Source of the DNA: Clostridia bacterium
GTDB taxonomy: Bacteria > Bacillota > Clostridia > Oscillospirales > Acutalibacteraceae
Length of the DNA: 46,170 nt
Reading direction: 5' to 3'
NCBI GenBank assembly: GCA_017409845.1
Contig: JAFQRY010000017.1
Span: 1-46,170, forward strand
Every line of letters starts with the position of its first letter. Position 1 is the first letter of the stretch. The notes under the pieces are model-generated. The model was not told the DNA's origin and made no database searches. It saw nothing but the letters and a program-made list of their open reading frames with translations. Both the position numbers and the translations under genes were made by a program. Positions 4,961-39,652 of this stretch are shown here, piece after piece.

Positions 4961-5335
4961 CTGAGCGGGTGCCGAGAGAATCTGTAAGCCGAGTTCTGTC
5001 ATTTAAGGCAATCATCTGTCTACGCCCTGCGTTGCCGCAGGGCTTTAGCCACCCGTCGGAGTATCGTCGAGCAAACGACGGAGCAAAGCTCCTCCCCCGG
5101 TCGGTGTTGCTTCGGATAGGGTTTGCAGGGCCGTGCGGTTCCCCGCACGCCGGTGAGCTCTTACCTCGCCTTTCCACCCTTACCTGTGATGCACAGGCGG
5201 TATATCTCTGTTGCACTTTCCCTAAGGTCACCCTCGGCGGCCGTTAGCCGTTATCCTGCTCTGTGAAGCTCGGACTTTCCTCACGCAGCATTACGCTGCC
5301 CGCGACTGCCCGACTCACTCAGCACACACGCTCCG
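4961..5335 (-). ncRNA. rnpB: RNase P catalytic RNA
   Basis: The minus strand folds and reads as bacterial RNase P RNA, the ribozyme that matures tRNA 5' ends together with RnpA. Conserved region I (GAGGAAAGTCCG, at 5271-5282) and conserved region V (ACAGAACTCGGCTTAC, at 4984-4999) are intact, along with GGGTGGCTAAAGCCC and the GATGATTGCC segment. The termini pair as helix P1 (GAGCG near 5333 with CGCTC near 4963). The overall arrangement fits the ancestral type A class. Ends are estimated from P1 and from the promoter. Open frames on either strand across this RNA are spurious. Confidence 0.96.
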
Positions 5336-31372: not shown

Positions 31373-31948
31373 TCATTGTGTTTGTTTTTTATTCGCGAAT
31401 CGAAGCATTCTCGGTCTGTTAAAACGCTGCATGATAACAAACGGAAGGTCACACAAAGCAGCAGCCACCGATGTTATAACAAAAACAGACAAACTTCCGA
31501 ACGGTATTGCAAGCAGGATCGGCAAAAACGAGAGAAGAATATTAAGCTCATGCACGAGCTCCGCACCGCACATGGTTTTTGCTATCTCCTGCGGCGTATG
31601 CTTTTTAAGCGAAAAGCTCTCCGGGTCACCCGTCGGCATAAAAATCTTCCATTTTTTTACTTTGATAAGCTTATATATCTTTCTTTCAAAAGCCGTTGTC
31701 TGAAACCAACGCCATTCGGGATTTAATTTTGAATAAAGAAGCTTAGTTGTCAGACTTCCGACCGCAAGCCTCATAACGAAATGATAAAGCATTGTTCCAA
31801 AGGAAATTGCTGCAGATAAATACGGAATTTTATCATGCTTGCCGTACAGCACAATAAACAATATCATCAATGATAACATGACAGAAATCGAAACAGCCGA
31901 TAAAATTCTGTTTGATTTACTTTTACTGCTGAATATATTTTCTTTCAT
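31373..31948 (-). CDS. CrtO-like membrane acyltransferase family protein
   Basis: The 191-residue membrane protein (about four spans) has the pattern of the glycosyl-4,4'-diaponeurosporenoate acyltransferase family: NPEWRWFQTTAFERKIYKLIKVKKWK, then GAELVHELNILLSFLP and the C-terminal CDLPFVIMQRFNRPRMLRF. CrtO of Staphylococcus acylates the staphyloxanthin glucose, but no carotenoid genes are present here, so the substrate is probably different. The frame opens at ATG 31960, but GAGGTG fits ATG 31948 better and I use that. It directly follows the GPH transporter gene. Confidence 0.75.
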   Translation of the reverse strand: MKENIFSSKSKSNRILSAVSISVMLSLMILFIVLYGKHDKIPYLSAAISFGTMLYHFVMRLAVGSLTTKLLYSKLNPEWRWFQTTAFERKIYKLIKVKKWKIFMPTGDPESFSLKKHTPQEIAKTMCGAELVHELNILLSFLPILLAIPFGSLSVFVITSVAAALCDLPFVIMQRFNRPRMLRFANKKQTQ

Positions 31949-31960
31949 AACACACCTCAT

Positions 31961-33403
31961 TTATAAGGCTTGACTTACCTCTTCTGTTTGCTGTGCAACA
32001 AGCCTTCTGCGCTCGTTGAGCTCCTCATACATTCTTTCAAGTTTTTCGCCGCTCAGGTCATAAAAGAGCTTGGGAATTATGCTTAATAGCCCCGTAACAA
32101 TCGGCACTATCGTGCACATTGCAAAAAGTGCAAATTCCGTTTTTTCGCTCTGAGTTCCCGATACGGCACCCTGAACATAACCGATCTTTGAAAGAATAGC
32201 GGTCTGCAAAGTGTCTCTGAAGGTTTTGACAAGCTTTGCCGATATCTCTTTTGCCGCACCCGTCATACCTTCACTGCGATATCCGTTTTTCCATTCTCCG
32301 TAATCAATCGCCTCGTTTTTCATTTCGGAAGGAATAACCTTCATTATTCCGTAAAACATCATCCATATTGTTTCTCTTATCATCCAGGCAGGAATCATTG
32401 CACCGAGTTTTTTATAGTTTTTGTTAAAGCAGCCTACAATAAAAACACCCGAAAGCAAAAGGTTATCGACATGTGAGCCTGCAATCCAGAGCAGCTTAGT
32501 TGAAAACCGTTTTCTTGCCCACGAAACATACGAATAGCTCATCGGTGAAACAAAAGCACCGGGAATTCCTACTATCGTTGCCATTGACGAAAACCCGAGA
32601 ACGTCACGGTAATAAAGACTGAGGTCTCCGCTGACACTGAACGCACCCAGAAACTCCGAAAGAACTATCAGAAGCATCGGTTTATTGGTGATAATCGCCT
32701 TCATACTGCCTTTGACAGCCGGTTTTTCTTCCGACTGCATAACTCTCTCTTTGGCAACAAGTGCATATATGAATGCAAGCACGCCCGAAACAGCGGTAAC
32801 CGTTATGCCTGCCGAAACATAGAGCGAAGATATATCAATTTTAATTATGCCTCTGTCAATGAAATCCATCAGAAATCCCATAACAATCTGAGGTGCTTTT
32901 TCAACAAAACCCGAAAGAAGGTTGGCTTTTGTTATCAGTGAGGTTCTCTCGGCAATATTGGGAGTTATGGTTGCTGTCATGCCCGTTCTTGCAATTGTGA
33001 TTACCGTATGTGCAAGGTCATGGAGAAGCTGAAGTATCAGATATGCCGCAAGCTTCGGTGCATAATACAGTCCGCTTCCTCCGAAAAAATTCGGAAGAAG
33101 CCAAAAAAGAATACTGATTGATACTCCGGGAACGGCATAAATCATCAGCCACGGCTTGAATTTTCCCCAACGGGTTCTTGTTTTATCAACAACGGAAGCA
33201 ACCAACAGATCGTTGATTATATCCCAGATACCCATTATAAAGGTTGCCGTCTTCTGAAAATTCAGACCGATTTTCAGAATATTTATTATGTAAATGCTTC
33301 TGTAATAATCAATATTGAAGCTTTGCGCAATATCATCAAGAACATATGCGACCGTTTCCTTAGTACCTACATACCGACGGTTTTCTGTGTTTAAATCTCT
33401 CAT
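31961..33403 (-). CDS. MFS transporter of the GPH (sugar:cation symporter) family
   Basis: A 480-residue, twelve-span transporter with the glycoside-pentoside-hexuronide signature in the helix 2-3 loop: GIWDIINDLLVASVVDKTRTRWGKFKPWL. A second GPH-like motif is IDYGEWKNGYRSEGMTGAAKEISAKL. These symporters import sugars with sodium or protons; MelB is the best known. Substrate is unknown. A usable RBS (AAAGGGTGATGGC) precedes ATG 33403, but no clear promoter was seen in the short gap from 33404 to 33461. It may lie within read-through transcription. Confidence 0.88.
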   Translation of the reverse strand: MRDLNTENRRYVGTKETVAYVLDDIAQSFNIDYYRSIYIINILKIGLNFQKTATFIMGIWDIINDLLVASVVDKTRTRWGKFKPWLMIYAVPGVSISILFWLLPNFFGGSGLYYAPKLAAYLILQLLHDLAHTVITIARTGMTATITPNIAERTSLITKANLLSGFVEKAPQIVMGFLMDFIDRGIIKIDISSLYVSAGITVTAVSGVLAFIYALVAKERVMQSEEKPAVKGSMKAIITNKPMLLIVLSEFLGAFSVSGDLSLYYRDVLGFSSMATIVGIPGAFVSPMSYSYVSWARKRFSTKLLWIAGSHVDNLLLSGVFIVGCFNKNYKKLGAMIPAWMIRETIWMMFYGIMKVIPSEMKNEAIDYGEWKNGYRSEGMTGAAKEISAKLVKTFRDTLQTAILSKIGYVQGAVSGTQSEKTEFALFAMCTIVPIVTGLLSIIPKLFYDLSGEKLERMYEELNERRRLVAQQTEEVSQAL

Positions 33404-33461: not shown

Positions 33462-33502
33462 AAACTCCCGTATTTTTCAAGACAGAAAAATTACGGGAGT
33501 TT
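33462..33502 (-). terminator. Terminator after the HTH-cupin-acyl-CoA synthetase gene
   Basis: Perfect 11-bp arms AAACTCCCGTA (33462-33472) and TACGGGAGTTT (33492-33502). On the minus strand the stem ends in TTTTTC, so it serves the gene ending at 33507. Confidence 0.88.
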
Positions 33503-33506
33503 AATT

Positions 33507-35825
33507 TTACTTACCTGCTCTCAGATCAACACGGCGGATTTTACCGCTGATGGTCTTGGGCAGATCATCTCTGAATTCAACGATTCTGGGATATTTATAG
33601 GGAGCTGTACGCTCCTTGACATATTTCTGGATTTCCTTCTTGAGAGCATCGGTCTTTTCCGTGCCCTTGGTCAGAACGATATCAGCCTTGACTACCTGAC
33701 CTCTGATTTCATCGGGAGCTGCGGAAACAGCACATTCAAGAACATAAGGAAGCTCCATGATAACGCTTTCGATTTCGAAGGGTCCGATACGGTAGCCCGA
33801 TGACTTGATAAGGTCATCAACACGTCCGACATACCAGAAGAAGCCGTCTTCATCACGCCATGCGGTATCACCTGTGTGATAGATATCGTCGTGCCATGCT
33901 TCCTTGGTCTTTTCTTCGTCACGGTAATATTCCATGAACAGACCGCAGGGTGAGCCAGCTTCTGTTCTGACAACGATTTCACCGACCTCGCCTACCTTAG
34001 CAACTGTTCCTTCATTTGTGATGAGGTCAACATCAAAGAGCGGACTGGGCTTACCCATTGAGCCTACCTTGATTGATGAACCGACAAAGTTACCGATTGC
34101 AAGGGTTGTTTCGGTCTGGCCGAAGCCTTCCATAAGACGGATACCCGTTGCCTTAAGGAACTGCTGGAATACCTCGGGATTGAGTGCCTCGCCTGCAGTT
34201 GTTGCATATTTGATTGACTTAAGGTCATATTTTTCAAGGTCTTCCTTGATAAAGAAACGATACATTGTGGGAGGTGCACAGAAGGTTGTTATTTTATGCT
34301 TGCCGATAAGCTTAAGGATGTCATCGGCAACAAAGCGGTCAAAGTCATAAGTGAAGACGCCTGCTTCGCAGAGCCACTGACCGTAAAGCTTACCCCAGAG
34401 TGCCTTGCCCCAGCCTGTGTCAGAGATTGTGAAATGAAGTCCGTTGGGGTCAACATTATGCCAGTATTTTGCGGTGATGAAATGACCGAGAGGATATCTG
34501 TGGCTGTGCATTGCGATTTTGGGATAGCCCGTTGTGCCGGAGGTAAAGAACATAAGCATCGGGTCGTAGCCGAATGCACCTTCCTCAGCTGAAGGTCTTT
34601 CAAAAACATCGCTGAACTGGCAGTATTCCTCATCAAAGCTTCTCCAGCCCTCACGCTTGCCGTGAGCAATGATTTTTGTTTTAAGAACATCACATTTCTC
34701 TGCCGCAAGCTCTACCTGATGAGCAACATCTCCGTCAGCGGTGCAGACGATTGCACTTATCTGACCTGCATTGAAGCGGTATTCAAAGTCATGCTCAACA
34801 AGCTGATTTGTTGCGGGAACAACGATTGCACCAATCTTATGAAGAGCAAGAATTGAGAACCAGAACTGATAGTGGCGTTTAAGAACAAGCATAACTCTGT
34901 CGCCCTTTTTAATGCCGAGCGAACGGAAATAGTTAGCAGTCATCGCCGAATGGCGTGCCATATCGCTGAAGGTAAAGCGTCTTTCGGTGCCGTCATTTTC
35001 AATATGAAGCATTGCTGTTTTGTCGGGGCTCTTCTTTGCAAGCTCATCAACAACATCAAAAGCAAAATTGAATTTATCATCATTTTTGAATTTTATGCCG
35101 TTGAGAACGCCGTTTTCGTCAAGAGTTGTTTCGATAAACTTCTCATAAACGGGATTCTGAAGATTTGCAAGGTCAACGTTTGTTGTGCTGGGAGTTTTGA
35201 TTTCTTCGCTGTATTCGCTCATTTCGGCTGAACCGTCGGGAGAAATAACGATTGCATAGAATTCGCATTCCTTGCCGCCGACTGCCATTTCGTTATGAGG
35301 AACGGATGAATCAAAATAAATACAGTCACCCTCGTTGAGAGTTTCTGTTCTGTCACCGATGATTACCTTGAGAGTACCTCTTGTGACAATATTTATCTCC
35401 TGACCTGCGTGAGAAACGCAATGATAGGGTGGATTGAGAGCTTCTTCCGAATAGGGAATAACTACTCTGAACGGCTCTGCAATTTTATTCTTGAAGAAGG
35501 GAGCAAGGCGGTTATAAACAAAGCCTTCTCTTCTTGTTATGGGCATTCCCTCGCCTTTTCTTGTGAGAGTATACTCTGTGAGGCTGGGGCTGCTGCCCTC
35601 CATGATATCGGTGATTTCAACACCGCAAACCTGAGCAAAATTATAAATGAAAGTGAAGCTGAAGTCCTTGCTGCCCGATTCATAGAAGCAGTATTCTTCT
35701 TCGCTCATGCCGATTTTTGATGCCATTTCGCCCTGGGTAAGACCCATATCCAGACGAAGTGAAATAATTCGCTGAGCAACCTCCATTATTTTGTTTTCGA
35801 CTGAACCCTGACCGAATGTTATCAT
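33507..35825 (-). CDS. XRE helix-turn-helix + cupin + AMP-forming acyl-CoA synthetase fusion
   Basis: One 772-residue chain joins three modules. Residues about 15-75 are an XRE-type HTH (RIISLRLDMGLTQGEMASKIGMSEEEY). Residues about 115-190 are a cupin (HCVSHAGQEINIVTRGTLKVII, GDCIYFDSSVPH). Residues about 220-772 are an adenylate-forming synthetase with the P-loop TSGTTGYPK at 428-436, GFGQTET, HTGDTAWRDEDGFFWYVGRVDDLIKSSGYRIGPFEIES and the catalytic lysine in KTISGKIRR. This part resembles medium-chain or branched-chain acyl-CoA synthetases more than true acetyl-CoA synthetase. The frame continues upstream to 35933, but AAAGGAGAG fits ATG 35825. A T-box leader with its own promoter precedes it. 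All adenylation motifs are present, so the enzyme should be active; the substrate is unknown. Confidence 0.92.
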   Translation of the reverse strand: MITFGQGSVENKIMEVAQRIISLRLDMGLTQGEMASKIGMSEEEYCFYESGSKDFSFTFIYNFAQVCGVEITDIMEGSSPSLTEYTLTRKGEGMPITRREGFVYNRLAPFFKNKIAEPFRVVIPYSEEALNPPYHCVSHAGQEINIVTRGTLKVIIGDRTETLNEGDCIYFDSSVPHNEMAVGGKECEFYAIVISPDGSAEMSEYSEEIKTPSTTNVDLANLQNPVYEKFIETTLDENGVLNGIKFKNDDKFNFAFDVVDELAKKSPDKTAMLHIENDGTERRFTFSDMARHSAMTANYFRSLGIKKGDRVMLVLKRHYQFWFSILALHKIGAIVVPATNQLVEHDFEYRFNAGQISAIVCTADGDVAHQVELAAEKCDVLKTKIIAHGKREGWRSFDEEYCQFSDVFERPSAEEGAFGYDPMLMFFTSGTTGYPKIAMHSHRYPLGHFITAKYWHNVDPNGLHFTISDTGWGKALWGKLYGQWLCEAGVFTYDFDRFVADDILKLIGKHKITTFCAPPTMYRFFIKEDLEKYDLKSIKYATTAGEALNPEVFQQFLKATGIRLMEGFGQTETTLAIGNFVGSSIKVGSMGKPSPLFDVDLITNEGTVAKVGEVGEIVVRTEAGSPCGLFMEYYRDEEKTKEAWHDDIYHTGDTAWRDEDGFFWYVGRVDDLIKSSGYRIGPFEIESVIMELPYVLECAVSAAPDEIRGQVVKADIVLTKGTEKTDALKKEIQKYVKERTAPYKYPRIVEFRDDLPKTISGKIRRVDLRAGK

Positions 35826-35867
35826 AAAAATCTCTCCTTTCGCTTTGAGCAGAAGTTTTTTGAAATA

Positions 35868-36138
35868 AAAAAACGCCTCAAAGCAATATTTCTTTGCTTT
35901 GAGACGAGTAAAAATCTTAACCCGCGGTACCACTCAAATTGCACTTTCGTGCCGCTCAACGGACTCCAACAAGCCCTACGCTTTAACGCAGCGAATACGG
36001 AAGCTGTCTACTCACCAAAAGATTTTCGGAGCTCCTGCTCGGAAGGGATAGCGATGAATTGTTCCGCTGACGGCTCGCACCAAACGCCGCCTCTCTGAAA
36101 GCCTTGCAACTCTGCCTTCTTCGTCATAGCTTTTCTTG
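35868..36138 (-). promoter_or_regulatory. T-box riboswitch leader
   Basis: The minus-strand RNA has all hallmarks of a tRNA-sensing T-box. The stem I distal part shows AGAGAG (around 36088) and a GGTGCGAG-type loop closed by GGCGGC/GCCGTC. The T-box sequence GAGTGGTACCGCGGGTTAA lies at about 35918-35936. Its TTTGAG arm can pair with CTCAAA as an antiterminator, while CTCAAAGCAA pairs with TTGCTTTGAG in the competing terminator (about 35877-35909) before seven T residues. The T-box bulge UGGU would match a tRNA ending ACCA. The specifier loop between helices GAGTTG/CAATTC and GAAGG/CCTTC reads AUCGCUAUC, allowing GCU (Ala) or AUC (Ile). Confidence 0.93.
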
Positions 36139-36144
36139 AATAAG

Positions 36145-36173
36145 ATAATAGCACCGCAAAAAGAATTTGTCAA
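36145..36173 (-). promoter_or_regulatory. Promoter of the T-box/acyl-CoA synthetase unit
   Basis: On the minus strand TTGACA (36168-36173), 17 bases, TATTAT (36145-36150). It lies immediately downstream of the blaR1-like stop codon at 36192, so the T-box unit is independently transcribed. Confidence 0.88.
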
Positions 36174-36191: not shown

Positions 36192-39100
36192 TTACCATGA
36201 TGTTGAAAGCAGTTCATACATTGCCCTACCTGCAGCCCCGACATCGTAACGCTGACTGCTGTTCATTTCAACCGTTCCGTCATCATAAACGAAAAGATAA
36301 ATCATTTTATTTCCGTCTATTACCCTTGCAACAAAACAGTTTTCGCTGTGCTGCTCTCCGTCAACGGGATTTGACCAATCAAATCCGTTATACAGCTTAA
36401 CAAACCTTGATTTTTCATCCTCGGAAAGCGTTCTTGTGACAATCACTCCCGACGTGTTCGGCTCGGCATTAATCATATCGGGATTTTCAAGCTTTTCTCC
36501 CGGTCTTGCCTTTCCGACTGTCCGTGATTCAACGCTGAAGCTGATTCTTACATCAATAATGCTGTTTTCGTCCGCACCGCTCTCCGTGCCGTAATAAGCG
36601 CCGGTTATAAGAGCATATCTTCCGTTTCTGCTTTCATCTGCGGAAAAATACGGGTCAAACGGGAAATCAACGGTTATCAGTTGGTTCGGGTAAACGGGAA
36701 CAAGCTCCGTTCTCGGCTCATAACTGCTCGTTATCATCATTCTTTCTGTTGTGTTTTCGCTTGTATATCTTCTCAAAGCCTGATTGGGAACGATATAAAG
36801 AATTCTGTCACCGTCATTGACGAATGTTACGGAAACATATTCTCCCGTGAGGATATCAAGACCCTTGAATTCAAGCCCCGAATTTTCGGAAATATCCGAT
36901 TCAACATCGGTTACAACATATTTCTGATATCTGGTCGGCTCAAAAGACGACTCCGCTGCAGTTGTTGCAGGCGGCTGATACGGCGGATTGAGAGTCATAA
37001 CCCCGGTCATTGCTTCGGTGGTAAAATAATTCGGTCTTATTATATCCAGTGCTGTTGTTTCGGCGGTATATCCGACGCTTTCGCCCGATATATCGGGTCT
37101 GTCGGGCTGAAATACAACACCGTGAGCATCGGTAATATCGTGAACAAGCTTATAAAGCTCCATGGTGCTGCTTTCATAAAAATCGCCTCTTACATCCTCA
37201 ATCATTCCGCCCGAAGAAACGGTAAACTGATATTTCCTGTTATCAGATGCATCAATCACAACATATATCGACTTGCTGTAATCAATATAAGCTTCCCTGA
37301 CTTTTGTGAATTTTGTTTTGTTGAAACATCTGACGATTTCTTCAAGCTCTTCTGCGGAAAGATTGATAAAATTATTATAATTCATTCCCGGATAAATAAC
37401 TCCCGAAACAGCCCCTCTGATTTTTTCTGTAACCGGAATAAGAGTTCCATATGAAAGTGTTTTATGAGCAAGCTGCGGCTTTTTTGAGGTTGCTTTTCCG
37501 ACCTTGATTTCAAGCATAATTTCTTTGTGAATACCGTCATTATCAGAAACAATCAGCTTCAGGACATATGACGGCTCGCTGATTTCATCAATATACATTG
37601 AAAGATCTGCAAAATGCAGAACCTCTGTTCCGACAAGGTATCCCGAAGGAATTGTTGTTTCAAACTGAGTGGCAGGATGCTTCGGGTCATAAGCTTCACC
37701 CGTTTTGCCGTTAAGAAGGACAAAATCATCCAGTAAGTAATACGCACCGCCTTCAGCTGTGTTTTTTGCTCTTATCACAAGACAAGGCTTGCCGAATTGG
37801 TCTGTCACAAGCTCACATCCCGTAATTTTAACGGCGTTGATGCTTTCGTCGGCAGCATATGAATATTCCGTTTCATAGGTTTTGACAAGGCTCAGATACT
37901 CTTTGTATTTACCCCTCGCCTTGTTTTGTGCACGCTCAAAAATTTCATTATCATAGCGGCCTTTTTGCCGTACAGATTCGGGAATATCCTTATCATTTTC
38001 ATAATTTATTACCGAAACAACATTGCCTTTTTCGTCAAGCTCCGCCTTGAAACCAACGGCCGGCATTTCGTCCGTCTGAAAGAGAGCATCCTCATATCTG
38101 AGAAGCTGATAATAAGAAGAATTATAATCATAAATCCTCTGCCATCCGTACGCAGTCATTTTATCCTCGCTTATTTCAACAACCTCTGCAGCGGCTATTC
38201 TCATTTCATATTTATAATGCTCATTGCCTTCGGTCTGTTTTTTCCAATCCTCTTCAAGAAAAATCTCGACTTTTTCCCTGACATCTTCTTTACTGTAGGT
38301 TTTATTGACGGAATTCGTAAGACACACCGCACCGACCGCAATACACAAAACAACACAAATAATAATTGCAACCGTTTTCGGCTTTTTGAAATTGAGAACA
38401 TTGACAATTCTTTTTTCAACGACATTCTCGCCGAATGAAAGCGGTGCACCTGCCGCAAAACGGCGGTTTGAACCGACGGCAACAAGCGTCAATCCGTAAT
38501 TTTTCTTTTCCTCCTCACCAAGCTCACGCAAAACCTTTTCATCGCAGCTCATTTCCATATCACGCACCATGAGATGATATCCCAGCCACACAAGCGGATT
38601 ATACCAATGGAGCATAAGAACCGCAAACGAAAGCAGCTTTGTTATGTGGTCAAGGCGGCGGATATGATTCTTTTCGTGAAGTATAACAAACTTTTTCTGT
38701 TTATCGTCCATTCCGCAGGGAAGAAAGATTTTCGGTCTGAAAAAGCCGAAAACAAACGGCGAACGGATTTTATCGCATTCAAAAATATTTCCTTCAAGCC
38801 TTGTTGCAAATCCGGTTCTTCGGTAAACGCTGACAAGTGAAGCAAGTCCGTAAGCTGCCATAGCTGCTATTCCGATAACCCACAAAACCGCAGCTGCCGA
38901 TGTTATAACCTGCATCGGATTTACGCTTTCACCGATCTGCGGTGCAGGCAAAGCAGGATTGATAGCAGCATCTGCTGCGTTGATACCCGTTGATATTTCA
39001 GGTATCTTCATCGTTCCTATATTATCGGGAACATATCCGTTCACCGTTGCTCCGCCGATTGACGATTCATGTGCAGGAACAGAAAGAAAATTGAATATAC

Positions 39101-39287
39101 TCAGCACCGATGAAATCGAAAACGGGCACAAAAGCCTCAGCCCCGCAATAATCCACAGGCAATACGAAAAGATTTTAGGAGCTTTACGAAGCAAAAATCT
39201 GATAAATATAATCGCAAGAATTATGTAGCTGCCTGTTATGCTCATATTGAAAAATGTTATAAAAGCATGTTCAAGAAAATCAAGCAT
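36192..39287 (-). CDS. BlaR1/MecR1-like M56 metallopeptidase sensor with very large extracellular region
   Basis: The 1031-residue protein starts with an M56 module: membrane spans at about 16-33, 38-55 and 128-152, then a cytoplasmic zinc peptidase with H204-E-K-N-H208 (VILHEKNHIRRLDH) and a downstream EMSCDEKVL glutamate site, and a fourth span at about 305-325. In BlaR1 this domain cleaves its repressor after an extracellular signal. The remaining ~700 residues are outside the cell and are not a penicillin-binding transpeptidase. I see no SxxK-led fold, but several beta-rich segments (about 330-450, 470-600, 620-720, 770-930, 950-1031). The start shares one base with the upstream BlaI-like gene. 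The signal sensed is unknown. Confidence 0.85.
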   Translation of the reverse strand: MLDFLEHAFITFFNMSITGSYIILAIIFIRFLLRKAPKIFSYCLWIIAGLRLLCPFSISSVLSIFNFLSVPAHESSIGGATVNGYVPDNIGTMKIPEISTGINAADAAINPALPAPQIGESVNPMQVITSAAAVLWVIGIAAMAAYGLASLVSVYRRTGFATRLEGNIFECDKIRSPFVFGFFRPKIFLPCGMDDKQKKFVILHEKNHIRRLDHITKLLSFAVLMLHWYNPLVWLGYHLMVRDMEMSCDEKVLRELGEEEKKNYGLTLVAVGSNRRFAAGAPLSFGENVVEKRIVNVLNFKKPKTVAIIICVVLCIAVGAVCLTNSVNKTYSKEDVREKVEIFLEEDWKKQTEGNEHYKYEMRIAAAEVVEISEDKMTAYGWQRIYDYNSSYYQLLRYEDALFQTDEMPAVGFKAELDEKGNVVSVINYENDKDIPESVRQKGRYDNEIFERAQNKARGKYKEYLSLVKTYETEYSYAADESINAVKITGCELVTDQFGKPCLVIRAKNTAEGGAYYLLDDFVLLNGKTGEAYDPKHPATQFETTIPSGYLVGTEVLHFADLSMYIDEISEPSYVLKLIVSDNDGIHKEIMLEIKVGKATSKKPQLAHKTLSYGTLIPVTEKIRGAVSGVIYPGMNYNNFINLSAEELEEIVRCFNKTKFTKVREAYIDYSKSIYVVIDASDNRKYQFTVSSGGMIEDVRGDFYESSTMELYKLVHDITDAHGVVFQPDRPDISGESVGYTAETTALDIIRPNYFTTEAMTGVMTLNPPYQPPATTAAESSFEPTRYQKYVVTDVESDISENSGLEFKGLDILTGEYVSVTFVNDGDRILYIVPNQALRRYTSENTTERMMITSSYEPRTELVPVYPNQLITVDFPFDPYFSADESRNGRYALITGAYYGTESGADENSIIDVRISFSVESRTVGKARPGEKLENPDMINAEPNTSGVIVTRTLSEDEKSRFVKLYNGFDWSNPVDGEQHSENCFVARVIDGNKMIYLFVYDDGTVEMNSSQRYDVGAAGRAMYELLSTSW

Positions 39288-39652
39288 TATCTCCCCTCCT
39301 TATGTGAATTAATAAGGTCAGTCAGCCTTTGTGCCTCCTTTTCGGAAATGGTTTTTCCTCCGAGGAAGGAAGCAAGGAAAGACGGCAGAGAGCCGTCAAA
39401 GGTACGGTCAACAAAGTTTTCACTCTCGTTCGCCTGCACCATTTCTTTGGGAACGAGCACGGATACAACCGCATTTTCATTTTTGATAAGCTCCTTTTCG
39501 CTCATCTTGCGGATTGCATTGTAGGTTGTTGACTTCTTCCAGCCGAGCTTTTCTTTGCAGAGCTCCACCAATTCCCCCGAATTGACAGGTGCACTATCCC
39601 AGACAACGCACATAAACTTATATTCGCTGTCCCATAAAGTTAAATCGCTCAT
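39287..39652 (-). CDS. BlaI/MecI-family transcriptional repressor
   Basis: The 121-residue winged-helix repressor shows the BlaI layout: LTLWDSEYKFMCVVWDSAPVNSGELVELCKEKLGWKKSTTYNAIRKMSEKELI (HTH and wing), then a dimerisation tail ending in EAQRLTDLINSH. Cleavage in the linker by a partner M56 peptidase inactivates such repressors. The stop overlaps the sensor ATG by one base (TAATG), so the two are translated together. Two palindromic sites cover its promoter, consistent with autorepression. Confidence 0.93.
   Translation of the reverse strand: MSDLTLWDSEYKFMCVVWDSAPVNSGELVELCKEKLGWKKSTTYNAIRKMSEKELIKNENAVVSVLVPKEMVQANESENFVDRTFDGSLPSFLASFLGGKTISEKEAQRLTDLINSHKEGR

Follow-up and report, generated by a model that had tools for sequence, protein, structure and literature searches.

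What is a T-box leader, an RNA element known from amino-acid genes and aminoacyl-tRNA synthetases, doing in front of a gene for an acyl-CoA ligase? The question is raised by a 46,170-nucleotide stretch of a Clostridia bacterium of the family Acutalibacteraceae (GenBank assembly GCA_017409845.1, contig JAFQRY010000017.1, positions 1 to 46,170; hereafter the window, with the other surveyed loci numbered L and genomes numbered G), whose minus strand carries a T-box leader at 35897..36136 and, behind it, the gene for a 772-residue ligase at 33507..35825. We think it likely that an isoleucine-specific T-box here controls a branched-acid:CoA ligase that activates 2-methylbutyrate for conversion to isoleucine, and that a sister gene in related genomes does the same with isobutyrate for valine. 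The observed basis of this explanation consists of the leader, its specifiers and switch elements, the gene neighbourhood, the phylogeny, the pocket residues and the co-occurrence of genes.

The leader is complete and has its own promoter, as an earlier note on this DNA had claimed. A sigma-A type promoter, TTGACA and TATTAT separated by 17 nucleotides with a TG before the second hexamer, lies at 36145..36173 on the minus strand (11 of 12 matches), and a permissive cmscan of window positions 35700-36400 matches the T-box model RF00230 over its full length (model positions 1-219 of 219) at 83.6 bits and E 1.4e-18. Because this score is below the gathering score of 93, a default Rfam scan misses the element; in control genomes, likewise, only part of the RF00230 matches found (2 of 5) are over the cutoff. 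The antiterminator (35898..35938, minus strand) runs from UUUGAG through the bulge UGGUACC (35926-35932), of the UGGN type and placed between the antiterminator helices, to GCGGGU, and then to ACUCGU and CUCAAA. An intrinsic terminator follows at 35874..35906, the sole terminator-like site, and its 5' arm is the 3' side of the antiterminator; since antiterminator helix A1 and the terminator both use CUCAAA, the two states are mutually exclusive. Between the promoter and the ligase gene there is no further promoter-like site on the minus strand (two others lie further upstream), which upholds the relevance of the T-box to the gene. A likely ribosome binding site, AAAGGAGAGA, can be picked out by eye at 35831..35840, ahead of the ATG at 35825. 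Stem I with its specifier, the UGGU bulge and the antiterminator/terminator switch are thus as in known T-box leaders, but unlike them this one controls an acyl-CoA ligase.

Folded as a single sequence, the leader is not unusual for its composition (z -1.15, with 16 of 100 shuffles equally good), and because its own fold is uninformative the structure was tested on relatives. The structure, drawn from the window leader itself, was laid over an alignment of 49 leaders chosen for a readable AUC or GUN specifier (51 were listed; L058 and L085 were left out). It pairs 89.7% of cells compared with 76.7% in shuffles, double changes occur at 34 of 47 pairs, and the covariation score is 0.426 compared with 0.190 shuffled, a value reached in 0 of 500 shuffles; the terminator version of the structure scores 0.449. 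Sliding the partners by 1 to 3 columns brings pairing down to 50.3% or less, a comparison biased towards the unslid version by the use of a single member's structure. Paired cells make up 93-99% of the distal stem I helix, of stem III and of the long hairpin that comes next. All 49 leaders are identical at five of the six pairs of A1 and at the first three of the six in A2. The TGGTACC columns are also invariant in 49 of 49, partly by construction, as the leaders were found by a TGG-type core pattern. The T-box leader of the window is confirmed as real. Its closest counterpart among the 11 other T-box leaders of the same genome is that of valS (L003), with 181 of 257 alignment positions identical and 90 of 114 in the 3' part, a closeness that suggests a shared origin of the two leaders.

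The specifier codon, for which the earlier note gave no reading, is AUC, isoleucine, at 36047..36049 on the minus strand. It stands one base before CUUC (36042-36045), the 3' strand of a basal helix whose other strand is GAAG (36119-36122), and this helix is paired in all 49 aligned leaders. This one-base spacing was calibrated as a register rule on the T-box leaders of the window's own genome, with the downstream genes named by eye. It fits the gene for proS (CCC), valS (GUA), trpB (UGG), alaS (GCC), ileS (AUC) and the first of the two ilvA leaders (AUC); the second (CUC) is ambiguous, L002, L008 and L012 give no reading, and the rule fails for thrS, where it gives CCG and ACC sits two bases upstream. 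The two T-boxes before ilvA (L006 and L011) stand in tandem, the first reading AUC and the second CUC or another codon. For some leaders the automatic specifier finder gave a wrong codon or none, and five Ile calls of the survey described below (L030, L061, L071, L076 and L106) were set by eye or from another reading.

The gene product matches HTH_3 (amino acids 22-73, 35607..35762, E 7e-6), Cupin_2 (138-192, 35250..35414, E 9.3e-11), AMP-binding (261-633, 33927..35045, E 3.6e-59) and AMP-binding_C (684-762, 33540..33776, E 6.8e-21), all encoded on the minus strand, in agreement with the earlier description of an acyl-CoA ligase with regulatory domains. An inverted repeat followed by a T run, noticed by eye 3' of the stop codon (33464..33500, minus strand), is a likely terminator, so the transcript probably holds this one gene. 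The best solved relative is MacsA of Methanosarcina acetivorans (PDB 3etc; 655 bits over amino acids 245-769, next best 367), which stands as the precedent enzyme proposed before: the catalytic domain is alike, but MacsA is archaeal and the match is confined to that range and leaves out the HTH-cupin part. W477 aligns with position 282 of the 3etc chain; as motif III of MacsA lies at 431-435, the numbering offset is 23, which makes W477 the counterpart of Trp259, G473 of Gly255 and L476 of Val258. Trp259 and the glycine of GWGK are conserved in the window ligase, where they belong to the acyl-pocket motif G473-K-A-L476-W477 (34395..34409, minus strand). Gly569, in GFGQTE, also aligns with a MacsA motif, and we take it to be the glycine that replaces Trp416 of Acs. 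Passages of PMC10455477 report a preference of MacsMa for 2-methylbutyrate, a Gly in MacsMa where Acs has Trp416, and a Trp259 that fills this place and is critical for acyl binding. The nearest curated family, and best NCBIfam model, is MbcS (NF047394, 451.3 bits), from which the window ligase differs in scoring below the curated cutoff of 850 and in its fusion to HTH-cupin; superfamily relatives are annotated as acetate-CoA ligase.

How general is the pairing of T-box and ligase? A protein search of 60 related genomes gave matches at E 1e-60 or better in 51, and a wider contig search, from which the best 80 of 586 relatives were kept as loci, was supplemented by further stretches. Together these hold 159 distinct ligase genes (seven incomplete, and seven such rows left out of the tree), at loci that include Ruminococcus flavefaciens SAb67 (L072) and Neglectibacter timonensis (L085). 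Orthologues with the HTH-cupin fusion, at about 54% identity or more and with upstream DNA present, carry a T-box in 118 of 131 cases, and the specifiers are 97 AUC (Ile), 19 GUA and 2 GUC (Val); among these 118 no ligase is preceded by a codon other than Ile or Val, Leu included. The T-box expected upstream of orthologous ligases is therefore there. Ten fused-like genes below 54% identity, seven of which (L135-L141) share a contig with a nearby VorB match, have no T-box, and neither do eleven ligase genes whose match lacks the HTH-cupin part. A Ruminococcus group (L046, L047, L049-L053, L055, L056, L062 and L068) has the ligase without a T-box, and its close member L048 has one. A later sample came from a class-level search, which gave, the window and one fragment aside, 27 fused matches of at least 54% identity. 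From these 19 loci were made, of which two are identical to the surveyed L063 and L067 and others are up to 94% alike. The 17 non-identical loci comprise 13 with AUC and GWGK, 2 with GUA and GWAK, and 2 without a T-box (L187 and L188, both GWGK), the specifiers of L197 and L200 having been read by eye; a rule by which Ile goes with Gly and Val with Ala thus held in all 15 new T-box cases. Both genomes behind L187 and L188 (G112 and G082) carry ilvD.

That rule rests on catalytic-domain position 473, where all 97 Ile-type ligases have Gly and all 21 of the Val type have Ala, and at position 476 the residue is Leu in 97 of 97 Ile-type ligases compared with Ala in 13, Met in 7 and Leu in 1 of the Val type. 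Both positions are within four residues of W477, the residue aligned with Trp259 of MacsA. In a FastTree phylogeny with long outgroup branches, the Val-specifier genes form one clade with a local support of 100 and a single specifier change. In 13 of the loci surveyed (L084, L101, L108, L114, L116, L120, L121, L122, L147, L148, L149, L162 and L163) an Ile gene is followed on its strand by a Val gene. We lean, if only slightly, towards a history in which one duplication was followed by a joint change of the specifier from AUC to GUA and of the acyl pocket from Gly to Ala, such that sensor and enzyme match the same amino acid and the specifier codon can be taken to label what the enzyme acts on; the HTH-cupin part, which also changed fully between the types, may add an input that senses the acid or its acyl form.

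The neighbours of these tandem genes fit a route to amino acids. L101, L116, L121 and L122 share one gene order: T-box-Ile ligase, T-box-Val ligase, a CbiA-type ATPase, a small ferredoxin, VorB, VorA and VorC (the subunits of 2-oxoisovalerate:ferredoxin oxidoreductase, VOR) and IlvE, and parts of the ligase-VOR-IlvE order recur in L108, L114, L118 and L120. In L121 VorB scores 542.7 (cutoff 399) and IlvE 477.9 (cutoff 307); for the beta and gamma subunits, matches to 2-oxoacid:ferredoxin oxidoreductase models stay below cutoff. An IlvE-like gene, translated by eye, also follows the Val-type ligase in G014. L122 has a 2-isopropylmalate-synthase-like gene (below cutoff) behind a T-box that the automatic finder reads as CUC (Leu); leucine made from 2-oxoisovalerate would explain why no ligase of a Leu type was seen. 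The window genome has VorB (545.9, cutoff 399) and IlvE (507.3, cutoff 307) as well, with beta and gamma subunits below the cutoffs of their 2-oxoacid:ferredoxin oxidoreductase models (136 of 364 and 116 of 235). On its contig 23 the VOR genes are accompanied by IlvE, by a LeuA-like gene and by two separate genes, the first for an HTH-cupin protein and the next for a ligase; this unfused ligase reads GWAKSLW, with Ala at 473. The same run encodes an 834-residue protein (L135 13178-15682, minus strand) in which a second AMP-forming ligase is joined to a xylose-isomerase-like barrel (AP_endonuc_2); these domains recur in L097 7113-9608, and members of this cluster occur in 5 of the best 80 loci. 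A protein with ACT and metallo-beta-lactamase domains (L064 3009-4451) is found in six loci, directly after the ligase in L064, L070, L097, L099 and L104.

The ligase also keeps company with VorB and tends to occur without the standard biosynthetic genes. Our search for the latter covered ilvC, counted by KARI matches over 200 bits, and ilvD; the two occur in the same 16 of the 60 related genomes, a partial 55.9-bit KARI match in G002 not being counted. With fused-type ligases of any identity, 39 of 46 ligase-positive relatives are without ilvC/ilvD compared with 5 of 14 negative ones (p 0.0008). Kinship was handled only by taking one order-mate per family: in the resulting 23 genomes, 11 of 13 positives compared with 2 of 10 negatives are without ilvC/ilvD (p 0.003), and VorB is present in 13 of 13 compared with 3 of 10 (p 0.0005). 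Restricting the tests to fused matches of at least 54% identity weakens them, but they hold, both in the 60 relatives (36 of 42 compared with 8 of 18 without ilvC/ilvD, p 0.003) and in the order-mates (8 of 9 compared with 5 of 14, p 0.03; VorB in 9 of 9 compared with 7 of 14, p 0.02). A class-level sample of 79 genomes with at least 90% completeness, two of which (G000 and G049) were also in the first sample and one of which (G110, split-type) was counted as negative, agrees: ilvD is lacking in 14 of 21 ligase genomes compared with 15 of 58 others (p 0.0014), and VorB is present in 21 of 21 compared with 39 of 58 (p 0.0019). Of ten hand-picked genomes behind named loci, eight with a T-box and two without, all ten have VorB and three have ilvD; in R. 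flavefaciens SAb67, VorB is present and ilvD lacking.

In the mechanism that we propose, uncharged tRNA-Ile would pair with the AUC specifier and the UGGU bulge and stabilise the antiterminator, so that the ligase is made. The ligase would convert 2-methylbutyrate from gut or rumen fluid to 2-methylbutyryl-CoA, which VOR with reduced ferredoxin could reductively carboxylate to 3-methyl-2-oxopentanoate, and IlvE would transaminate this to isoleucine; the sister gene of related genomes, with its Val T-box and changed acyl pocket, would take isobutyrate to valine likewise. The substrate, the direction of flux and the induction by uncharged tRNA are what we infer, and the reading of branched-acid activation driven by uncharged tRNA is well supported. 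The earlier note had suggested acid activation for reductive carboxylation to an amino acid. The specifiers, the VOR and IlvE neighbours and the VorB/ilvD co-occurrence support this for 2-methylbutyrate with isoleucine and isobutyrate with valine, and the isovalerate-leucine pair finds no support in this family, as no Leu specifier was seen before a ligase. Conversion of 2-methylbutyrate to isoleucine and of isobutyrate to valine is reported rumen physiology, according to passages in PMC7356843; the precursor-product pairs are the same here, but the activating enzyme and its control are now assigned, by comparative genomics. A word search finds neither "acyl-CoA" nor "CoA ligase" in the main text of two T-box papers, PMC2494555 and PMC3766115, and an open literature search found no work that joins T-boxes to acyl-CoA ligases or reductive carboxylation, though an earlier mention is possible and the T-box surveys of 2008 and 2009 were not covered.

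Several observations weigh against this explanation. The VOR genes of the window genome are on another contig, and none of its 12 T-boxes is near them; ilvC and ilvD are present, and T-boxes precede its ilvA. Since the genome keeps ilvC and ilvD, the reductive route there would be parallel to the standard one and not the sole source. More widely, 13 of the 131 fused orthologues have no T-box, and ilvD persists in 7 of the 46 relatives with the ligase and in 7 of the 21 class-level ligase genomes. Within the leaders, the stem I helices beside the specifier loop and helix 9 are paired in just 43-75% of cells, and roughly half of the Ile leaders have C as the base 3' of the specifier (counts uncorrected for the five hand-set Ile calls) rather than the purine that is usual by a rule given in a part of PMC7583486. 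As to the two types, HTH-cupin positions 58, 99, 119 and 123 separate them as fully as 473, and, with all Val-type genes in a single clade, residue differences may partly reflect descent.

Could the ligase serve another end? It might, in the role proposed for Listeria MbcS, supply branched acyl-CoA as primer for branched-chain fatty acids, with the T-box merely signalling a general branched-chain shortage. MbcS is the best NCBIfam model (451 bits) and branched acyl-CoA could serve both uses, but the score is below the MbcS cutoff of 850, primers need no split between Ile and Val, and the tandem runs contain VOR and IlvE, so we consider this unlikely. Still less probable is that the route runs oxidatively, from amino acid to acid with a gain of ATP, or that the enzyme scavenges acetate or propionate with an incidental link to Ile. 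VOR enzymes are reversible and superfamily relatives are annotated as acetate-CoA ligases, but a T-box responds to scarcity of the amino acid by turning expression on, which is the wrong sense for catabolism, Gly569 aligns with the MacsA motif in which, presumably, this Gly replaces Acs Trp416, and ligase genomes tend to lack ilvD.

Two further doubts concern the leader itself. If the specifier were misread by one base it would be UAU (Tyr) and the acid an aromatic precursor. The thrS leader of the same genome does violate the one-base spacing rule, but the base before AUC varies (T, C or A) in the alignment, whose leaders were picked for AUC or GUN, the Val paralogues would read UGU, and the CUUC/GAAG helix is paired in 49 of 49 leaders; a shifted register would be most surprising. 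It is also conceivable that the T-box has little weight and the gene is mainly under the control of its own HTH-cupin domain, as all 118 T-box genes are HTH-fused and the Ruminococcus group has the gene without a T-box. But covariation across the 49 leaders shows both switch states to be conserved and the specifier tracks the paralogue, and we think it quite improbable that the leader matters so little.

The window holds a few other features. Just upstream of the T-box, at 36192-39652 on the minus strand, is a pair of a BlaR1-type M56 peptidase and a BlaI-type repressor, both below curated NCBIfam cutoffs. Downstream of the ligase, beyond the likely terminator, are an MFS_2 sugar-type transporter and a CrtO-like protein (31373-33403, minus strand), and a class A bacterial RNase P RNA lies at 4969-5321 on the minus strand (277 bits).

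Rumen fibre degraders have for decades been known to require isoacids. According to the abstract of PMC12272956, isoacids serve as a feed additive for ruminants. If isoleucine and valine are made from them as we propose, the ligases described here are candidate isoacid-activating enzymes, each tied by its specifier codon to one amino acid, and their T-boxes suggest how the spending of ATP and ferredoxin on isoacids is timed. The Ruminococcus group without a T-box, set against L048, offers a natural comparison of regulation. The ligase genes would be a new kind of gene among T-box targets, and the Ile and Val paralogues may be a natural case of a sensor and an enzyme changing together.

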